The notes under the pieces were generated by a model. The model did no database searches. It saw nothing but the letters and a program-made list of their open reading frames with translations, and was not told the origin of the DNA. The position numbers and the translations under genes are program-made. 64,000 bases of DNA, from assembly GCA_020051695.1 (NCBI GenBank), contig JAGVQM010000021.1, positions 124,001 through 188,000 on the forward strand, in the 5' to 3' direction. Position 1 is the stretch's first letter, and every line of letters begins with the position of its first letter. Shown piece by piece: positions 21,795 to 30,117 of the stretch. This DNA is from Candidatus Zixiibacteriota bacterium (GTDB lineage: Bacteria > Zixibacteria > MSB-5A5 > WJJR01 > JAJRUJ01).

Positions 21795-23789
21795 TTATGG
21801 CGCGCACGGGTCGCACGGTCCGCCGCCTACCTGCTTGTAGACATAATTGACGCAGTAGGCCACATCCAGCGGCGTGACGCCGGTGGCGCAGTCCCAATCA
21901 CCGTTATTGCCGGGGCAGTCGGGGAGCTGGACGCGCGAATCGAGTTGTTTGTACACATAGTTTACCAGGATCGTAACATCGAGGGGCGTGATCAGCCCGC
22001 TCAAATCCAGGTCGCCAAACCCCGCGCAGTCGCAATCACTGATCCGGTGGGAACCGATCAGGGAATAGTACTGTGGCGCAGCCAGCGTTCCCTTATGCGA
22101 CACGTTCACCGTGTATGTCCCGGCGGCGGGCGATTCGAGATATATTTGTTCGACGTTATCCCGGATGTTATCACCGGTTCCTGCGGGCGCTGCGGGCAGT
22201 GCGGGGTCCAGCACATATGGCTCGTAAACCGTGGCCGTACCCTGATGCTCCAGCCGCACGTCCAGATCGTTGACCAGCATTATTGTACTCGGATTTAACG
22301 ACGCCGGCGGCGAGGTACCCGGCGGATCGGTCCAGGCCAGAGTAACCCGCAGGGGCGCGGTGCCGTCGCTGACCAGCTCGTATTCGTCGGTTTCACCGTC
22401 GGCCAGGGGTTCTTCACGGATCCGGGCGGTCTGTGCCGAATCGGCCTCGATCAATTCGACTGCCGACCGCGTATTCATCAACCCCCAGCCGAACATATAA
22501 TCCGGTCCGGGATTCGGTCCGGCTTCATCTGCGGTATGGATGACCAGGGCCTTGATTGTCGAAGCCAGCGGGGTCTGTCCTTCGTGTGTCGTTTCGTAAT
22601 ATTGCACCAATAGATTTATCGAACCCGAGACATTGGGGGTACTCATTGACGTGCCGCTCAGCGAGGTATAGTCGGCATCGTGGCCGTTGTCGCAGGAGTA
22701 TAACGAAATGCCGTTGGCCACAATATCCGGTTTAATGCGGCCGTCATCGGTCGGTCCCCAGCCGCTGAACGAACTCATTGTCACCGCGCCGGGTGTGGTA
22801 TATCCGGAAGTCAGGTCACCCACCGCCCCGACGGTGATAATGTTTTTGGCGCAGCCCTGCCACGGGATACAATCGTAATGGTCGGCGCCGCCGTCGGGGT
22901 CACGCACCACGAACGACCACACCCAGTCATTTCCCCCCCATACATAATGCCCTTCTTCGGGACCGGGGCCGGTGTCATCACGATCATTGCCGGCAGATTT
23001 GACGATGGTATAGTATGGCGCATTATACGCGATTTCGTCCCAGACCTCCGAGGCCGCACCGTAAAACCCGAAACCGTAATCTTCAATTTCGCTAATGTCG
23101 GTATCACCATACCAGTACCAGTCGCCGTCTTGACTCCAGCCCCCGGCAAAACCGTACGAATGGTTGGAGACATGCATCCCTGCTGCTGCGGCGGTGGCCA
23201 TCTCACCGTCATCGTTGTCCCAATCGTACGCGTGCAGCGGGGCCGCGAACGACATCCCTCGGGCCGTGGAGGTTACCCCCACGGCGACCATGGTCCCCGC
23301 GACGTGGGTCGAATGGTAATGTGTTGCGGCCGGGCTGTCGATCTGCGTTACTCGGCCTTCAAATTCCCGGTGGGTGGTCAGCACGCCGCCGCCGTCCCAT
23401 TCGCCGAGTTCCCCGGCTACGGTGGTCGAACCCGACAGGGTGAAGCCTGCTCCGCCGAACGGCCAGACATCGTCAGTACTGATTGTCCGGGCGGCATTGA
23501 GATTTTCCACCTGATAGAAACGCGGCTGGCCGCGGTAGTCGATGGAAATAAGTTGAATATCTGGATTTTCGTTCAGCCGCCGTTGTGCCGTTGACGTGTC
23601 GGCCAGCAAATCGTAATACAACTGCGTCCGCCCGTCGGCCAGTTGTTGCACATATGTCCGACTCAACTCCTCGAGGATTGTGCGCTGTGTCAGGGGGCGG
23701 TCTTTCGCGGCGGCCGACAGAGCAAAAATCACCACCGGCAATGCAAGTACACAGACAAACAATGCAGTACGGTTAAACGATGCGGTCAT
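21795..23789 (-). CDS. Secreted subtilisin-family (S8) peptidase with C-terminal dockerin-like module
   Basis: A protein of 664 residues with an N-terminal signal peptide (about 1-28). The subtilase domain carries all catalytic elements: Asp in GEWDGGG (about 132), His in HSTHVAGTM (about 161), the oxyanion Asn in KSAGND (about 267) and Ser in SGTSMSTPN (about 379). A beta-sandwich domain follows (about 455-590). The last 70 residues are Cys-rich with two EF-hand-like repeats, GLITPLDVTILVNYVYKQ and GVTPLDVAYCVNYVYKQ, separated by CPGNNGDWDC and ending GPCDPC. The same module ends the next two genes. ATG 23789 follows GGGGAGG by 6 bases; an in-frame TTG lies two codons earlier. It should be exported and degrade extracellular protein. 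Confidence 0.9.
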   Translation of the reverse strand: MTASFNRTALFVCVLALPVVIFALSAAAKDRPLTQRTILEELSRTYVQQLADGRTQLYYDLLADTSTAQRRLNENPDIQLISIDYRGQPRFYQVENLNAARTISTDDVWPFGGAGFTLSGSTTVAGELGEWDGGGVLTTHREFEGRVTQIDSPAATHYHSTHVAGTMVAVGVTSTARGMSFAAPLHAYDWDNDDGEMATAAAAGMHVSNHSYGFAGGWSQDGDWYWYGDTDISEIEDYGFGFYGAASEVWDEIAYNAPYYTIVKSAGNDRDDTGPGPEEGHYVWGGNDWVWSFVVRDPDGGADHYDCIPWQGCAKNIITVGAVGDLTSGYTTPGAVTMSSFSGWGPTDDGRIKPDIVANGISLYSCDNGHDADYTSLSGTSMSTPNVSGSINLLVQYYETTHEGQTPLASTIKALVIHTADEAGPNPGPDYMFGWGLMNTRSAVELIEADSAQTARIREEPLADGETDEYELVSDGTAPLRVTLAWTDPPGTSPPASLNPSTIMLVNDLDVRLEHQGTATVYEPYVLDPALPAAPAGTGDNIRDNVEQIYLESPAAGTYTVNVSHKGTLAAPQYYSLIGSHRISDCDCAGFGDLDLSGLITPLDVTILVNYVYKQLDSRVQLPDCPGNNGDWDCATGVTPLDVAYCVNYVYKQVGGGPCDPCAP

Positions 23790-23907
23790 CCACAACCTCC
23801 CCGGTGTGCCGTCCGCTCTCGGGCGGGTTCATTGTGCGGCAGATGTACGTCATGAGTATGTTACTGCTTGCGTCTCCAGTCCGTCAACAGCGGAGTTGCC
23901 GCCGGGC

Positions 23908-26841
23908 CTACGGGTAATTCGGGCAATTGTCCGGATAGGGTGTGCAGCCGCACGGCTCGCACGGTCCCACGTTCGAACTCTTGTATACAAAACTCACATA
24001 CCAGGCGACATCCACCGGCGAGACGATCCCACTGCAATCCCAATCACCATTGTCGCCGGGACAGGCAACCAAAACGGCCCGGGCATCAAGTTGTTTGTAC
24101 ACATAATTGACGATGTACGCAACATCGAGCGGGTTGATGGAATTGCTGAGATCAAGATCACAATACTGCGCGCAATCACAGGCGCACCCGGTGGGCAGCG
24201 CGCCGATCAACGTATCGCAGTCATTGTTAGCCGGGGCACACGGAGAATTGTCACTGATGCTCAGCTCACCCTCGTCAAGATTGCAGAACAGCGGATCGAT
24301 CGAAAAGTTGCCGTTGGCGCCGTCCTGGCCAGCCAGACAGCCCATCCAATCGCCGCCGGCATTGCCGTAAACATCGGTGCACGCGGCAGTGGCCGAACTG
24401 GCTTCATAACAGGCCGCCGGCGAACTGGTCAGGTTGTAGGCGATGATGCAGTTTTCCAGGGTGACAGCCGATTGGTCGTACGAAAATACCGCGCTGCCTA
24501 TCGACGCGGAGTTATCGACAAATGTGCAATTGACCAACAACGGCGCGGACCGGAAGGCATACACCGCCCCGCCGGCGACAGCCGCATTGCCGGTAAAAAC
24601 GCAGTTTTTTACCAACGGCGAGGATTCATTGAACAGAATCCCGCCGCCGCTGGCGCTGCCGTTGAAAGTGCCGCCGTAACCGCCGCGAATGGTCAGGCGC
24701 TCGATGACGGTCTGTGCATCTTCTCCCTGGTTCAGCGCAAAGGCCCGGCGCGGTGTGGAGCTGCTGCCTGCAGGGTCGATGATTGCGGTTTCCGGCCCAT
24801 TGGCCGAGGTCAGTAAAATGCGCCGGCCGCGCAAACTGATTTCACGGTTGCCCACGCCGGCGTAGACGCCGTCAATCACCGCGACTGTATCGCCATGGGT
24901 CGTGGAATCAATGGCCGCCTGAATGGTCGGCGCATCGCCCATCCCGTCGGTTTGGACATACCAGGTGCGGATAATCTCGCAACTGTCGCCGATCCCGTCG
25001 CCGTCGACATCTTCCTGCAGCGGATTATAATCAGTCAGGCAGTTGTCGCACAGATCGCCGACATTGTCGCCGTCGGCATCGTCCTGCGCCGGGTTGTACG
25101 CGGCCGGACAGTTGTCGACATCGGCGCAATAACTGTCACCGTCCGCGTCATCGTAGCGGTCGAGCGGACAAACATCGCAGGAGTCGCCGACGCCATCGCC
25201 GTCGGATTCCTCCTGCAGCGGGTTGTAGACTCCGGGGCAGTTGTCGCACGGTTCGGCATACCCGTCGCCGTCGGTGTCGGTCCACGGCTGCGAGGTCGAG
25301 TTGTAGGTGTTGACCAGCCCGTAACCGTAAATTTCGTCCCGACCCGGATCGCCCATATCGCGCGAGGTACAGCGGAGTTTATCTTCCACTTCCGCCGCGG
25401 TCAGGGTGGGTTCGACCGCAATAATCAAGGCGGCGGCCCCTGCGGCATATGGCGCGGAGTAGGACGTGCCCTGCACGTAGCCGTAATCACCGCTGTAATA
25501 CCCGTCGGTCCCCGTGCGGTCAGTGGTATAGACCGCGGTGCCGGGAGCGGAGACACTGATGTCGGGTCCGTAATTGCTGAACGAGGCCAAATCACCGAAG
25601 TAATTAATTGCCGAGACCGAATTGACCGTGGCCAGACTCGCCGGATATCCGGACTGATCGACACCGTCGTTGCCCGCGGAGGCGAAGTGCACCATGCCGT
25701 TGGCATAGGTCGAATTATACTTGGCGGTGATTGCCGAGGATGTGCCGCCGTAACTGTTGGAATTGTTGCTGACCCGGACGCCCTGCGTTTCCGCCCACGC
25801 CAGAGCATCGACTGTCCAACTATACGAGCCGCTCCAGGTACCGTTGCAGGGGACCGTTGCCACGCCAATCCGCGCCGAGAGCACCCGGCAGTCCGGGGCA
25901 ATACCCACAGTCCCCAGGGCATTATTGATTTTGGCGGTGACGCAGCCGGCCACGGTTGTCCCGTGGTTATCGCAGGCATTGCCCGGCCCGCCGTCATAAA
26001 TGTCGCCGGTGAAATCTCGGCCTGTTTCTTGGTTGATATCGGGATGGTCCTGCTGAACACCGGTATCAAGAATGACGATTTTTACCGTCGAAGTACCCGT
26101 GGAAATATCCCAGGCCAGGTTGCCGTCCATATCGATGTCGGGCGTTCCTCCGAACTGGCCCGTATTATTTATCCCCCAAAGATTGGGATACCCCGGATCG
26201 TTGGGCGTCAGACAATGGACGGCCGTAAAATGCATATCCGGTTCAGCCCAGGCGACCTGCGGGTCTTCGGCAAGGAGATTGGCTTGGTGCAGGACTTCAA
26301 AGCCGTTGCGCGAGCTGCTGTGCAGCTTGTAGGCGCCCGGCATATTGCCGAATTCGTGCTCGGTAACCGCCAGGTCCGGTGCGAGCCGGGCGATAATCGC
26401 CGGACCGGCGGGCCGGGAATCCTCTTTAACACGCATAAGAATATCCGGCGTAATGGTCAGGCGGCCGTTGTTCAATCCGCGAAAGACCGGCGAAACAAAT
26501 TGAATGTCCGGCGAGTTCAATAAGGTCCGGATCTGCGCGTCGGCATCCTGGGCGCCGGACATGCTGGTGGCTAATTCGGCGACATACCACGCCCCGATAC
26601 CTGTGGGAGTCGTCGTAACAATGCTCACTCCGGCCCGGGCCATTGCCGCAGATTGTACGGCAGGATCGATGCCGGGCTGATATTGCACGGCCAGTTGATT
26701 GTTGACCAGTTCCAGTTCAACCGCTCCGCCCTGATAATAGTAGAATGTGGGCGTTTGTGCCGTGCCCAGGGAACAGCCAAGGAATACGAAGAAGATCGTA
26801 ATGAGGAACACCCTGCTGGGATAAGTGTTGACTGCAGACAT
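23908..26841 (-). CDS. Secreted S8 peptidase with thrombospondin-3 repeats, beta-helix and dockerin-like module
   Basis: A mosaic exoprotein of 977 residues. In order: signal peptide (about 1-28), a propeptide of about 200 residues, and a subtilase domain with Asp in [13 protein letters not shown] (about 258), His in DNHGTTVAG (about 291) and Ser in [12 protein letters not shown] (about 458). Next come at least four Ca-binding thrombospondin type 3 repeats ('[12 protein letters not shown]', 'DNCP..YNP.Q.D'), then a parallel beta-helix of about 240 residues (repeated 'L.NCTF.DN.A' turns), and last the dockerin-like module with [25 protein letters not shown] and GPCEPC. GGGAGG lies about 5 bases before ATG 26841; the longer frame upstream lacks a signal peptide. 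It shares its tail and strand with both neighbours but has its own promoter at 27097-27124. Confidence 0.9.
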
Positions 26842-27213
26842 TGAACCTCCCGGACAGAAACCACCGGCGGTTACTCCGCCGGCTGGATGAGAATATTTAC
26901 TAAAAATATCGGCAAAGATCGGTAATGCCCCAAACTGATGCGGGGCTGCTGTACAATTGAATTTCAAATCGGGTTGCGTCTGTCATGTGCTCTTAGCCGT
27001 TGTTTTTGATCCGGAAATTCTGCATCAGCCGTACCGGCCGCCGGCCGGTGTGAATCGACCTGTCGATCTGTACCCCGAGGACGCCATCTCCATATAAATA
27101 TAATGAGTTAGAGAATCGTGTCAATCAGTAATCACTACTTTTTCAGTTCTCTTTCGGGGTCTCCCGCTTTTCATGCCGCGAGCGGCAATCGATCCTGCCG
27201 GCGGGCCGCCCGG
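26842..27213. other. Intergenic region with S8 promoter and leader
   Basis: About 370 bp with no gene. It holds a strong minus-strand promoter (27097-27124). The leader of about 250 bases contains two strong hairpins: ACCGGCC/GGCCGGT (27033-27049) and CCGGCGG/CCGCCGG (26863-26881). The second lies just upstream of the ribosome-binding site. Confidence 0.6.
27097..27124 (-). promoter_or_regulatory. Promoter of the mosaic S8 peptidase gene
   Basis: On the minus strand TTGACA (27119-27124), a 16-base spacer and TATATT (27097-27102). Both boxes are near consensus. Confidence 0.65.
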
Positions 27214-30117
27214 TTATTCCCAGGCGGCGCAGGGATTGTTCGGCCCCCCGCCGATCTGCCGGTAAACATAATTGACGAAAAACGCGACATCCAGCGGTGT
27301 GACCTGACCGCTGCAGTCCCAGTCGCCGTTGGCGTAGGGGCAAATAGCCGCAAGCGCCTGCCGGGAATCGAGTTGGCGGTAGACGTAATTGACTATGTAC
27401 GCAACGTCGAGGGGGTTGATCGACTCGTCCCCATTGAGGTCGCAATACCCGGCGCAGTCGCAATTTTTGCACTCATACATCAAAATGCGGACCGCGTCGA
27501 CCGCCGCTTCAATGATCGAATCATCACCCAGGTCCGCGACTTCGAACCGCAGCCGCATCTGGTCGGTCGGCGCCACAAAATCCCCGGCCCAGAACTCGTG
27601 TTCTTGCCATCCCCCGGAAGCCAGCGTGTCCGGGCCGAACGTCTCCGCCGCAATCCAATCGGCGCCGTTGTTGTTGGAAATGTACGTGACGAATATGTCC
27701 GTCGGCGTATCACCGCCGGTATCGTTGCAGTACCACAGCGCGTAACGGATCTGCGCATTACCTCCGGACAAGTCGAATGGCGGCGAATCCAGATAGCTGT
27801 GCCCGCCGTCAAGGTCTGCATCAGCGCCGGTCAGATAGCATAAGCGCGAATCATCATAATCGACATTCGGCGTGCAGCCCAGCCCCATGGTGCTGGGGAT
27901 CCGCCGTTCCCAGTGACCGTCTGTCGCATCGCCCGAGATACTCCACCCCAGGTCCTGCGCGAAATTGTCGCCGAAAACAGTGATAATATTGGAATTGACG
28001 ATCGGGGTCAGCGGTTCGGAGGGTTGAGGATAATACCGCACGTCCCCTCCGGCAACCTGGGCCGAGACATAATATTGCAGGAGGTCTTCGCAGAGGATCC
28101 CCGGCAGAGTCGCCGAATAGTGCAATCTCGAAACCTCGACGAGGGGTACTGTTTCCTCCGGCTCGCCATTAACCGAATAATGCAGTAATTCCGTCCCCGC
28201 AAGCGGTGTCCCTTCCCAGATCGGCAGGATTTCCACTTCGAATGTGGCCGGAATTCCGGGCAAAACCGTATCCGGTACACCATGGGGGAAATAGATGGTG
28301 ATATCGTCGGCCCCGCCTTTTTCCAACCCGAACGTAATTGCCGGATCACCAAACAACGTCACCTCATAGTATCCGTAGCGCATCACCCCATCGCTGATGC
28401 GATAGAGGTTGTCTTCACGGGCATCCTGCAGCGCCCGGCCCAGCTGCGGCTTGTAGTCGAGAGGGTTGAAGATGGCATCCAGGAATTCCCGGTGGTACCG
28501 CTGGGACATGCCGTCGGTGCTTGTGCTCGAGCCGTAACCGTACCGGGCATTCATCACCAGCGCGAAAGCGCCGTGGTCGGTTTTAATCGTCAGTTGTTCG
28601 GCCCAGCAGTCCGGCCCGTCGAAATTCCCCGAGTAACAGGCCTGGGAAAACAGGAAAAACAACTGGTTGGTTGAAAGCGCGTTGATCATGTTTTGTGGCG
28701 ACGATTTCAATGCCCAGTAGGTGTTGCCGTGCCCCAGGTGATTGACCAGGTGCACTCCGTTGTTCAACCGGTTGTAGACTTCATATGCGGGCCAGTCGTG
28801 CCCCGGCCAGTCCCGATCGTAGAGTTTGTCGATGGCATATGTTACCGGTACGCCGACCGTCGTATATTTGTGGTTGCTGCAGGTGCCGATGAGTTCATCC
28901 ATGTACTGACAGCCATAGGAGACTATGCCGTCCCACAGATATTCGCCGCACATGAGCACTTTGGTCAGGTACCACTGCCGGCTGGACAGGTACATCAGCG
29001 TTTTTTGCACGAACCGCTGCGCTTCGGCGGTGTTCTCGACAGAAGCCCGGCCGACGCAGACCTCGGCCACGAGGTCGACCTCACCGCCGTTTTCGCCGTC
29101 CGTCGGCTCACCCCAGTATCCGTCACCATCATAGTTGAATGTGCCGTCGAGGCAGCCGAAGTAAATGTCCACCGGTATGGTGGGATCACCCCCGGCCATC
29201 ATGTCCCTCGCCGGGATTAACTCGTCATCGCCGCCGATCAACACATAGGAAATGCCGTCGGCCAGATAGCGCTCGCGCACGTAATCGCGGACGGCGTCCG
29301 GATTGCTGCTGCCCACTTCGGCAGTAGTGTGGATCTCCGTGGGGGTGCCGGTCGAATCGTGGTACTCTTTTAACGGCAGGAATGATGCCGCCAGCGACGA
29401 AGTAGTCAGAATCAGCAGGTCATAATTGGCGCCCGGTATTCGGCCCAGCTCCGGGTAGGATGTGCTGAGCCCCGGGTTGTCCACCTTGCCTTCGATTTCC
29501 TGTCTGTCTACCGGCATGCCACGGAATAACGGCGAGCGTTCGCCGGTGTCGTTGGTCGTAATGGTCACCAGCAGGCGCGGATAATATGCCAGTTCGCCGG
29601 TTGCCGGGATATACTCCACCGGCTGCAATTTCAACACGATTATTTGATAACCACGGAAACCGTGGGTACTGACGTTTGCAAACCGCTCTGCCGGGTACGG
29701 ATCACCCGATGAGTATATTGACTGGTCGGGGTGGGGCAGGTTTTCCCTGGTCGGGCCGACCGATAACCGAAATTCCTGGGTGACCGGTTCGATATAGTAA
29801 TTGCGCCCGAGGGCAATTTTTTCGCCGGTGGTCACCTCAATCGCGCTGACTTCGGCACCGGGGGGCAGAAGCAGGCGGGCGCCCTGCGCGGGTAATGCCG
29901 GCCGGCCGGGCATACCGGCATTGGGGGCGTCCGGCATGGCCAGCCGATGGTAGTTTACCCCATCGATTGTGACTTGGGTGATCTCGGGGCGCTCGAACGT
30001 ATATTCCATGGTCACTTGTCCGGCACGGGCGGATGAGGCCGCTATGAAAAACGCCAGCCATCCGGCCAGAATTAACGATTTCATGCTTTTGGCAGGTTTT
30101 CTATCTAGAGTGTTCAT
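27214..30117 (-). CDS. Secreted C25 (gingipain-like) cysteine peptidase with dockerin-like module
   Basis: A protein of 967 residues. Signal peptide about 1-32, a propeptide of about 190 residues, then a C25 domain (about 225-590) with the catalytic His in NHLGHGN (about 462) and Cys in FSQACYSGNF (about 494), the spacing of gingipains. An Ig-like domain (about 620-735) and a jelly-roll/MAM-type domain (about 740-895, 'GWSISGDATDGHWER') follow. The final 65 residues are the dockerin-like module with [26 protein letters not shown] and QVTPLDVAFFVNYVYRQ. Gingipains leave the cell by type IX secretion with a C-terminal sorting domain; here that place is taken by the dockerin-like module. ATG 30117 follows AGGGG by about 9 bases. 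Confidence 0.9.
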   Translation of the reverse strand: MNTLDRKPAKSMKSLILAGWLAFFIAASSARAGQVTMEYTFERPEITQVTIDGVNYHRLAMPDAPNAGMPGRPALPAQGARLLLPPGAEVSAIEVTTGEKIALGRNYYIEPVTQEFRLSVGPTRENLPHPDQSIYSSGDPYPAERFANVSTHGFRGYQIIVLKLQPVEYIPATGELAYYPRLLVTITTNDTGERSPLFRGMPVDRQEIEGKVDNPGLSTSYPELGRIPGANYDLLILTTSSLAASFLPLKEYHDSTGTPTEIHTTAEVGSSNPDAVRDYVRERYLADGISYVLIGGDDELIPARDMMAGGDPTIPVDIYFGCLDGTFNYDGDGYWGEPTDGENGGEVDLVAEVCVGRASVENTAEAQRFVQKTLMYLSSRQWYLTKVLMCGEYLWDGIVSYGCQYMDELIGTCSNHKYTTVGVPVTYAIDKLYDRDWPGHDWPAYEVYNRLNNGVHLVNHLGHGNTYWALKSSPQNMINALSTNQLFFLFSQACYSGNFDGPDCWAEQLTIKTDHGAFALVMNARYGYGSSTSTDGMSQRYHREFLDAIFNPLDYKPQLGRALQDAREDNLYRISDGVMRYGYYEVTLFGDPAITFGLEKGGADDITIYFPHGVPDTVLPGIPATFEVEILPIWEGTPLAGTELLHYSVNGEPEETVPLVEVSRLHYSATLPGILCEDLLQYYVSAQVAGGDVRYYPQPSEPLTPIVNSNIITVFGDNFAQDLGWSISGDATDGHWERRIPSTMGLGCTPNVDYDDSRLCYLTGADADLDGGHSYLDSPPFDLSGGNAQIRYALWYCNDTGGDTPTDIFVTYISNNNGADWIAAETFGPDTLASGGWQEHEFWAGDFVAPTDQMRLRFEVADLGDDSIIEAAVDAVRILMYECKNCDCAGYCDLNGDESINPLDVAYIVNYVYRQLDSRQALAAICPYANGDWDCSGQVTPLDVAFFVNYVYRQIGGGPNNPCAAWE

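Follow-up and report, generated by a model that had tools for sequence, protein, structure and literature searches.

Cysteine-rich dockerin-like tails on secreted peptidases of Candidatus Zixiibacteriota and their probable docking to T9SS-anchored cohesins

Three peptidase genes and a common C-terminal module

The window analyzed here, a 64,000-nt stretch of a Candidatus Zixiibacteriota genome, contains three consecutive genes that span positions 21795-30117 of the minus strand and encode, by ORF reading, an S8, a mosaic S8, and a C25 peptidase. Their features are as follows:

21795..23795, minus strand: S8 subtilase (ORF) with signal peptide and predicted C-terminal dockerin tail; Peptidase_S8 E 1.4e-28
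22482..23348, minus strand: S8 catalytic domain of the short S8, residues 149-437
21798..22034, minus strand: Cys-rich predicted dockerin tail of the short S8; 160.1 bits, reaching the stop codon with nothing after it
23908..26967, minus strand: S8 subtilase with signal peptide, thrombospondin type 3 (TSP3) repeats, right-handed beta-helix, and predicted dockerin tail; Peptidase_S8 E 3.2e-44, Beta_helix 1.1e-7
25318..26091, minus strand: S8 catalytic domain of the mosaic S8, residues 293-550
23944..24180, minus strand: Cys-rich predicted dockerin tail of the mosaic S8; 160.7 bits, 11 residues after the tail
27214..30117, minus strand: C25 (gingipain family) peptidase with propeptide and predicted dockerin tail; Peptidase_C25 E 8e-52, Propeptide_C25 4.4e-11
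28336..29415, minus strand: C25 catalytic domain, residues 235-594, with GHGN and SQACYSG motifs in its sequence
27217..27462, minus strand: Cys-rich predicted dockerin tail of the C25 peptidase; 162.9 bits, two residues (WE) after the tail

All three proteins have a plausible N-terminal signal peptide; because clean signal peptides begin at the ATG codons at 23789 and 26841, these are probably the starts of the two S8 genes, rather than the upstream TTGs. The last 79 to 82 residues of the three peptidases share 61 to 65% pairwise identity, and each copy contains CDCA..., two PLDV repeats, and NGDWDC. The initial annotation's common module on the S8, mosaic S8, and C25 genes therefore stands as a homologous tail of ∼80 residues, as do the ends it described (GPCDPC and GPCEPC in the S8 pair, GGGPNNPCAAWE in the C25 copy). 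Its description of three unrelated peptidases goes too far, since two of the three belong to the same S8 subtilase family. A related C25 gene is present on public-collection fragments labelled Candidatus Zixiibacteriota.

In the three window proteins no Pfam match (E ≤ 1) to a T9SS CTD was found, including Por_Secre_tail and CHU_C, and NCBIfam matches cover the catalytic and TSP3 regions, never the tail. Inspection by eye for a sortase-, exosortase-, or myxosortase-type end showed no hydrophobic helix and no basic cluster; the tails end 0 to 14 residues after the module.

A profile of the three window tails was searched against the 3.53-Mb genome (reported completeness, 98.9%) and gave 82 matches (best E 1e-48), so the shared window tail is not due to chance. 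For 78 copies the C-terminal side is not cut by a contig end; with up to 15 residues after the tail counted as C-terminal, 74 of these 78 are strictly C-terminal, which bears out the module as a C-terminal tag shared by exported proteins that are otherwise unrelated. Internal copies, which had been named as speaking against a sorting role, are represented by the other four, internal or before another domain: two proteins combining an “ESKTV” domain, a tail, and an extra C-terminal domain, and two others. Some tails in the genomes of relatives are also internal. The carriers are diverse and include TSP3, beta-propeller, FG-GAP, and beta-helix proteins as well as peptidases of families S8, C1, M28, C25, and M6; no glycoside hydrolase is found among the 25 commonest of the 87 domain families on tailed proteins. 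A home-made signal-peptide heuristic predicts export for 58 of 71 tailed ORFs and, with an identical cut, for 14 of 35 control genes from elsewhere in the window; we treat this count as only supportive.

The ESKTV domain is a secreted domain of ∼190 residues (AWxVxIESKTV...FEFDTACF...F.KG.ITI) for which no known family was recognized. It occurs on at least nine tailed proteins (loci L050, L063, L064, L073, L082, L086, L130, and L132 among them) and on three T9SS-CTD proteins (L058, L071, and L095). A divergent cohesin was considered for it and rejected (hhalign probabilities of 13% and 3%; no PDB match). At least nine short proteins consist of a signal peptide, the ESKTV domain, and a tail, an adaptor-like arrangement which, along with the occurrence of the domain on T9SS-CTD proteins, would suit homotypic docking, in which tails bind each other or the ESKTV domain to form a matrix. 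With no detectable cohesin homology, a receptor role for ESKTV is guesswork, and we hold this reading to be very improbable.

The tail as a dockerin variant

A profile of 38 tails was used in an hmmsearch of the PDB, and the closest solved relatives are cellulosomal dockerins (4fl4, E 1.3e-6; 1daq, E 1.9e-5), matched over both repeats (positions 5 through 70 of 78). The F-hand motif D1-x-[ND]3-x-[DSN]5-G-x-x-x-x-x-D12, followed by a helix, occurs twice per tail in exact register; over the 78 tails the ligand columns hold D1 at 94 to 97% and D12 at 100%, together with N/D3 and D/S5. Judged from homology, the module is thus a dockerin variant, type I-like, with two predicted F-hand calcium loops, and the “dockerin-like” reading of the initial annotation is upheld by both the loops and the match to solved dockerins. 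Pfam Dockerin_1 (PF00404) recognizes the C25 tail at 24.5 bits (cut-off, 22.9), leaves the two S8 tails undetected when searched alone, and reaches E ≤ 0.001 in 28 of 74 tail proteins. An AlphaFold2 model based only on the three window tails, a shallow alignment, has a pLDDT of 42.

The conserved cysteines of the tail are C1, C3, C40, C49, C74, and C77 in the 78-column model, and most tails hold six to eight. To our knowledge, conserved cysteines of this type are absent from classical type I dockerins. C11 and C35, the first-repeat equivalents of C49 and C74, are present together in nine tails with one exception that has C35 alone (p 2e-10), while C1, C3, C40, and C77 are gained or lost together. 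Because presence and absence co-vary in this way, the patterns suggest disulfide pairs C49-C74 and, when present, C11-C35, with C1/C3/C40/C77 forming a covalent clasp of the termini. Each calcium loop would thereby be tied to a residue after its own helix, and the ends of the domain to each other. The clasp of the ends in clostridial dockerins is one of ring stacking (PMC4728124); the Zixibacteriota tail would have a covalent, cysteine form of it.

Among the 78 columns of the model, only columns 17 and 55 are uniform in each of four lineages while differing from lineage to lineage. They correspond to position 10 of repeats 1 and 2, which is P in the genome's own family, S in family f13, V in f2, and I in f10, identical in both repeats. 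The column rule (a majority of at least 60% in every lineage and at least three different majority residues) was applied after the pattern had appeared in a first look; the relatives' tails, 8 to 13 per group, are the best matches to the own-genome profile, a bias that favors P, not a switch. Recognition residues of dockerins lie at positions 10, 11, 17, and 18 (PMC4081043), numbered 11, 12, 18, and 19 elsewhere, and in dual-mode dockerins the two repeats agree at these positions (PMC4728124). Position 10 is not a calcium ligand; within a genome its constraint equals that of the ligands, but its residue changes between lineages. The pattern suggests that position 10 of both repeats is a lineage-specific recognition code, placed at a known cohesin-contact position.

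The cysteines and conserved calcium loops, on a tail borne by many kinds of secreted protein, would also suit a calcium- and disulfide-stabilized protective C-terminal cap that has no partner. Such a cap leaves unexplained both position 10, with its ligand-like constraint within a genome and its differences between lineages, and the co-occurrence of tails with cohesins described below; we consider it quite unlikely.

Cohesins and the T9SS in the genome and the phylum

The initial annotation reported no cohesin or scaffoldin in the window and proposed that the tail may belong to an undescribed sorting system, adding that cohesins elsewhere that bind the tail would make it an ordinary dockerin. 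No cohesin lies within the 64,000-nt window, but seven places elsewhere in the genome score above the Pfam cohesin cut-off, and ∼21 match a profile built from Zixibacteriota cohesins. The lack of a cohesin thus holds for the window, but cohesins do exist elsewhere; their binding of the tail is a prediction. When compared with the PDB, the phylum profile gave 40 matches, namely, cellulosomal cohesins (to 4e-22) and four weak NagJ cohesin-like chains. The genome also encodes a T9SS (SprA, 655 bits; PorU, 629 bits; both above cut-offs) and ∼46 T9SS CTDs, and its cohesins are mostly on T9SS-CTD proteins. A noncatalytic 1818-aa ORF on contig C20 has four tandem cohesins followed by a T9SS CTD, the make-up of a scaffoldin; a 2180-aa protein has two cohesins and a T9SS CTD; and a 281-aa protein consists of a signal peptide, one cohesin, and a T9SS CTD. 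Of 24 cohesin matches sampled in relatives from many families of the phylum, 21 are CTD-ended (20 labelled by script and L141 by its end, SPNPFN...KQMILLK), one is dockerin-ended, and two are neither. With cohesins, mostly CTD-borne, available in the genome itself, there is no need to invoke an undescribed sorting system.

Because the cohesin fold is also found in ordinary Ig-like modules of the cell surface, a protein with a CTD and a cohesin is not necessarily a scaffold. The genome has ∼78 tails and ∼21 cohesins, a low number of cohesins per tail if both are expressed alike; a similar imbalance is seen in Ruminococcus albus, with 58 to 90 dockerins and 0 to 1 cohesin (PMC4081043).

Tail and T9SS CTD replace each other on the same enzymes: the nine S8 peptidases of the genome comprise four with a tail, four with a CTD, and one with neither, the five C25 proteins comprise three with a tail, one with a CTD, and PorU, and no S8 or C25 peptidase has both. 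The tail therefore does sit where C25 enzymes usually have a T9SS CTD, as first noted, and does so on S8 enzymes too. In one of the four tailed S8 genes the tail lies behind an in-frame TAG (C14:297222-298340), a possible pseudogene or sequencing error. The T9SS CTD (PF18962, TIGR04183) resembles the tail in being a terminal module of ∼75 to 80 residues on the same kinds of secreted enzyme, C25 included; it differs in being an Ig-like domain that ends in K-K-M-x-L-x-K, in sharing no sequence similarity with the tail, and in sitting, in this genome, on cohesin proteins and not on tailed ones. Because cohesins sit on CTD proteins, the economical reading is that CTD-bearing and tailed enzymes would both reach the surface, the former directly and the latter by docking.

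The alternation is also the best argument for a different explanation, in which the tail directs secretion or sorting on its own, as an alternative T9SS substrate signal or as a tag for an unknown outer-membrane translocon, and the cohesins are incidental. Its strictly C-terminal placement (74 of 78) fits such a signal, and a lineage-switched recognition code could equally belong to a translocon. The tail lacks similarity to Por_Secre_tail or CHU_C, however, four copies are internal or precede another domain, as do some in relatives, and the switched positions are exactly the dockerin-cohesin contact positions in both repeats. The distribution across the phylum bears on the same question. Among 132 genomes, tails are present in 125, a Pfam cohesin in 118, and SprA in 129; cohesin matches by Pfam or the phylum profile are found in all 125 tail genomes, and there are none in five of the seven tail-less genomes. 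Tailed genomes without a cohesin were considered as a class and rejected, as the nine Pfam-negative genomes are all positive with the phylum profile. The two remaining tail-less genomes, G022 (70% complete) and G123, have a cohesin with no tail detected. Co-occurrence of tail and cohesin is significant by Fisher's test (p 7e-8 for all genomes, 4e-6 for well-assembled ones), a value that overstates independence because the tail-less genomes, apart from the incomplete G022, all belong to two families and represent at best two or three independent losses. The T9SS is nearly universal in tail genomes, as a T9SS-dependent signal would have it, but SprA is retained and the T9SS intact in genomes without tails; therefore, the tail tracks cohesin, not the T9SS. 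On balance we judge the sorting-signal explanation unlikely.

Docking to the cell surface and relation to known systems

Dockerin homology, C-terminal placement, CTD-borne cohesins, co-occurrence, and the position-10 pattern together lead us to the view that T9SS-anchored cohesins probably capture the dockerin-tailed enzymes, which would make this a known type of docking system in variant form rather than a novel sorting system. The tail would be a two-F-hand calcium-binding plug stiffened by predicted disulfides between its ends. Cohesin-bearing surface proteins would be delivered and anchored by the T9SS, and tailed enzymes, once exported across the outer membrane, would be captured by them in a presumably calcium-dependent manner. 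The outcome would be a surface-bound, mainly proteolytic “cellulosome-like” exoproteome. A bolder version, which we regard as doubtful, makes the cysteine-clasped dockerin a second delivery tag beside the T9SS, with cohesins as docking or co-translocation sites for ∼78 proteins and a lineage-private lock-and-key residue that bars enzyme sharing between neighboring species.

The nearest precedent is Candidatus Stygibacter (Cloacimonadota), described in 2021. There, S8 and C25 peptidases with signal peptides have dockerins at their C-termini, a scaffoldin combines tandem cohesins with a T9SS-type CTD, and the role suggested for this cellulosome-like complex is the binding of polypeptides and polysaccharides at the cell surface (PMC8542988). 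The Zixibacteriota genome shares the dockerin-tailed S8 and C25 peptidases and the tandem-cohesin protein with a T9SS CTD. That system comprises one genus, a handful of enzymes, and a single 3755-aa scaffoldin with CBMs (PMC8542988), whereas here there are ∼78 tails, many CTD-bearing cohesin proteins, a predicted six-cysteine clasp, a predicted lineage-wide recognition residue, and a different phylum, in which 125 of 132 genomes have tails. What is new is thus the copy number and the phylum-wide spread, along with the predicted covalent cysteine clasp and recognition code. A literature search under the spelling Zixibacteria gave no paper on dockerins or the T9SS in this group.

The tail shares several features with the type I dockerins (PF00404) of Clostridium and Ruminococcus: calcium ligands at positions 1, 3, 5, and 12 in each of two F-hand repeats, agreement of the repeats at the recognition positions, and a mostly C-terminal location. 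Positions 10-11 are PL or PV in the Zixibacteriota tail and Ser-Thr in those dockerins. Unlike the cellulosomes of these genera, the Zixibacteriota carriers are peptidases and adhesion or beta-propeller proteins, plant-polysaccharide hydrolases are not among the commonest tailed families (25 of 87 shown), and the cohesins would be anchored by the T9SS instead of by SLH or sortase. If the docking model is true, the cohesin-dockerin principle reaches beyond the cellulose-degrading Firmicutes and covers an entire uncultured phylum of Gram-negative bacteria, in which proteases are the cargo and the T9SS is the anchor, and how Zixibacteriota hold exoenzymes at the cell surface becomes testable. A C25 protease that swaps its T9SS CTD for a dockerin would be directly relevant to how such enzymes reach the surface, and the tails could serve as building blocks, being dockerins that would be disulfide-locked by nature and orthogonal in specificity through the residue at position 10 (P, S, V, or I).

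Several further observations concern the tailed loci themselves. A conserved 5' leader and first codons close to CACCCTCAACTCGGGGGAGGGGATATGAAGGGCACGATTCG (MKGTIRLLAGG) recur in tailed genes that lie far apart, at C37:42966, C32:90434, C12:57719, C12:17843, and C25:118584 (L114, L117, L118, L120, and L124) and more weakly at C37:4 (L093), which suggests a common upstream regulatory or cassette element. At C39:88388 and C5:52406, two proteins with no other relationship have tails that share 87% DNA identity over 231 nt. In addition, eight contig ends fall inside tails (C14/C6/C15/C17 and C37/C19/C2/C34) that pair at 95 to 98% DNA identity. These are signs of tail exchange or recent duplication, which also breaks the assembly. 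At C11:78223-78817, two tailed genes converge so that their tails lie face to face ∼130 bp apart, and similar convergent tails are found in the relative G124 at C104:89316/89676 and C56:16877/17286.
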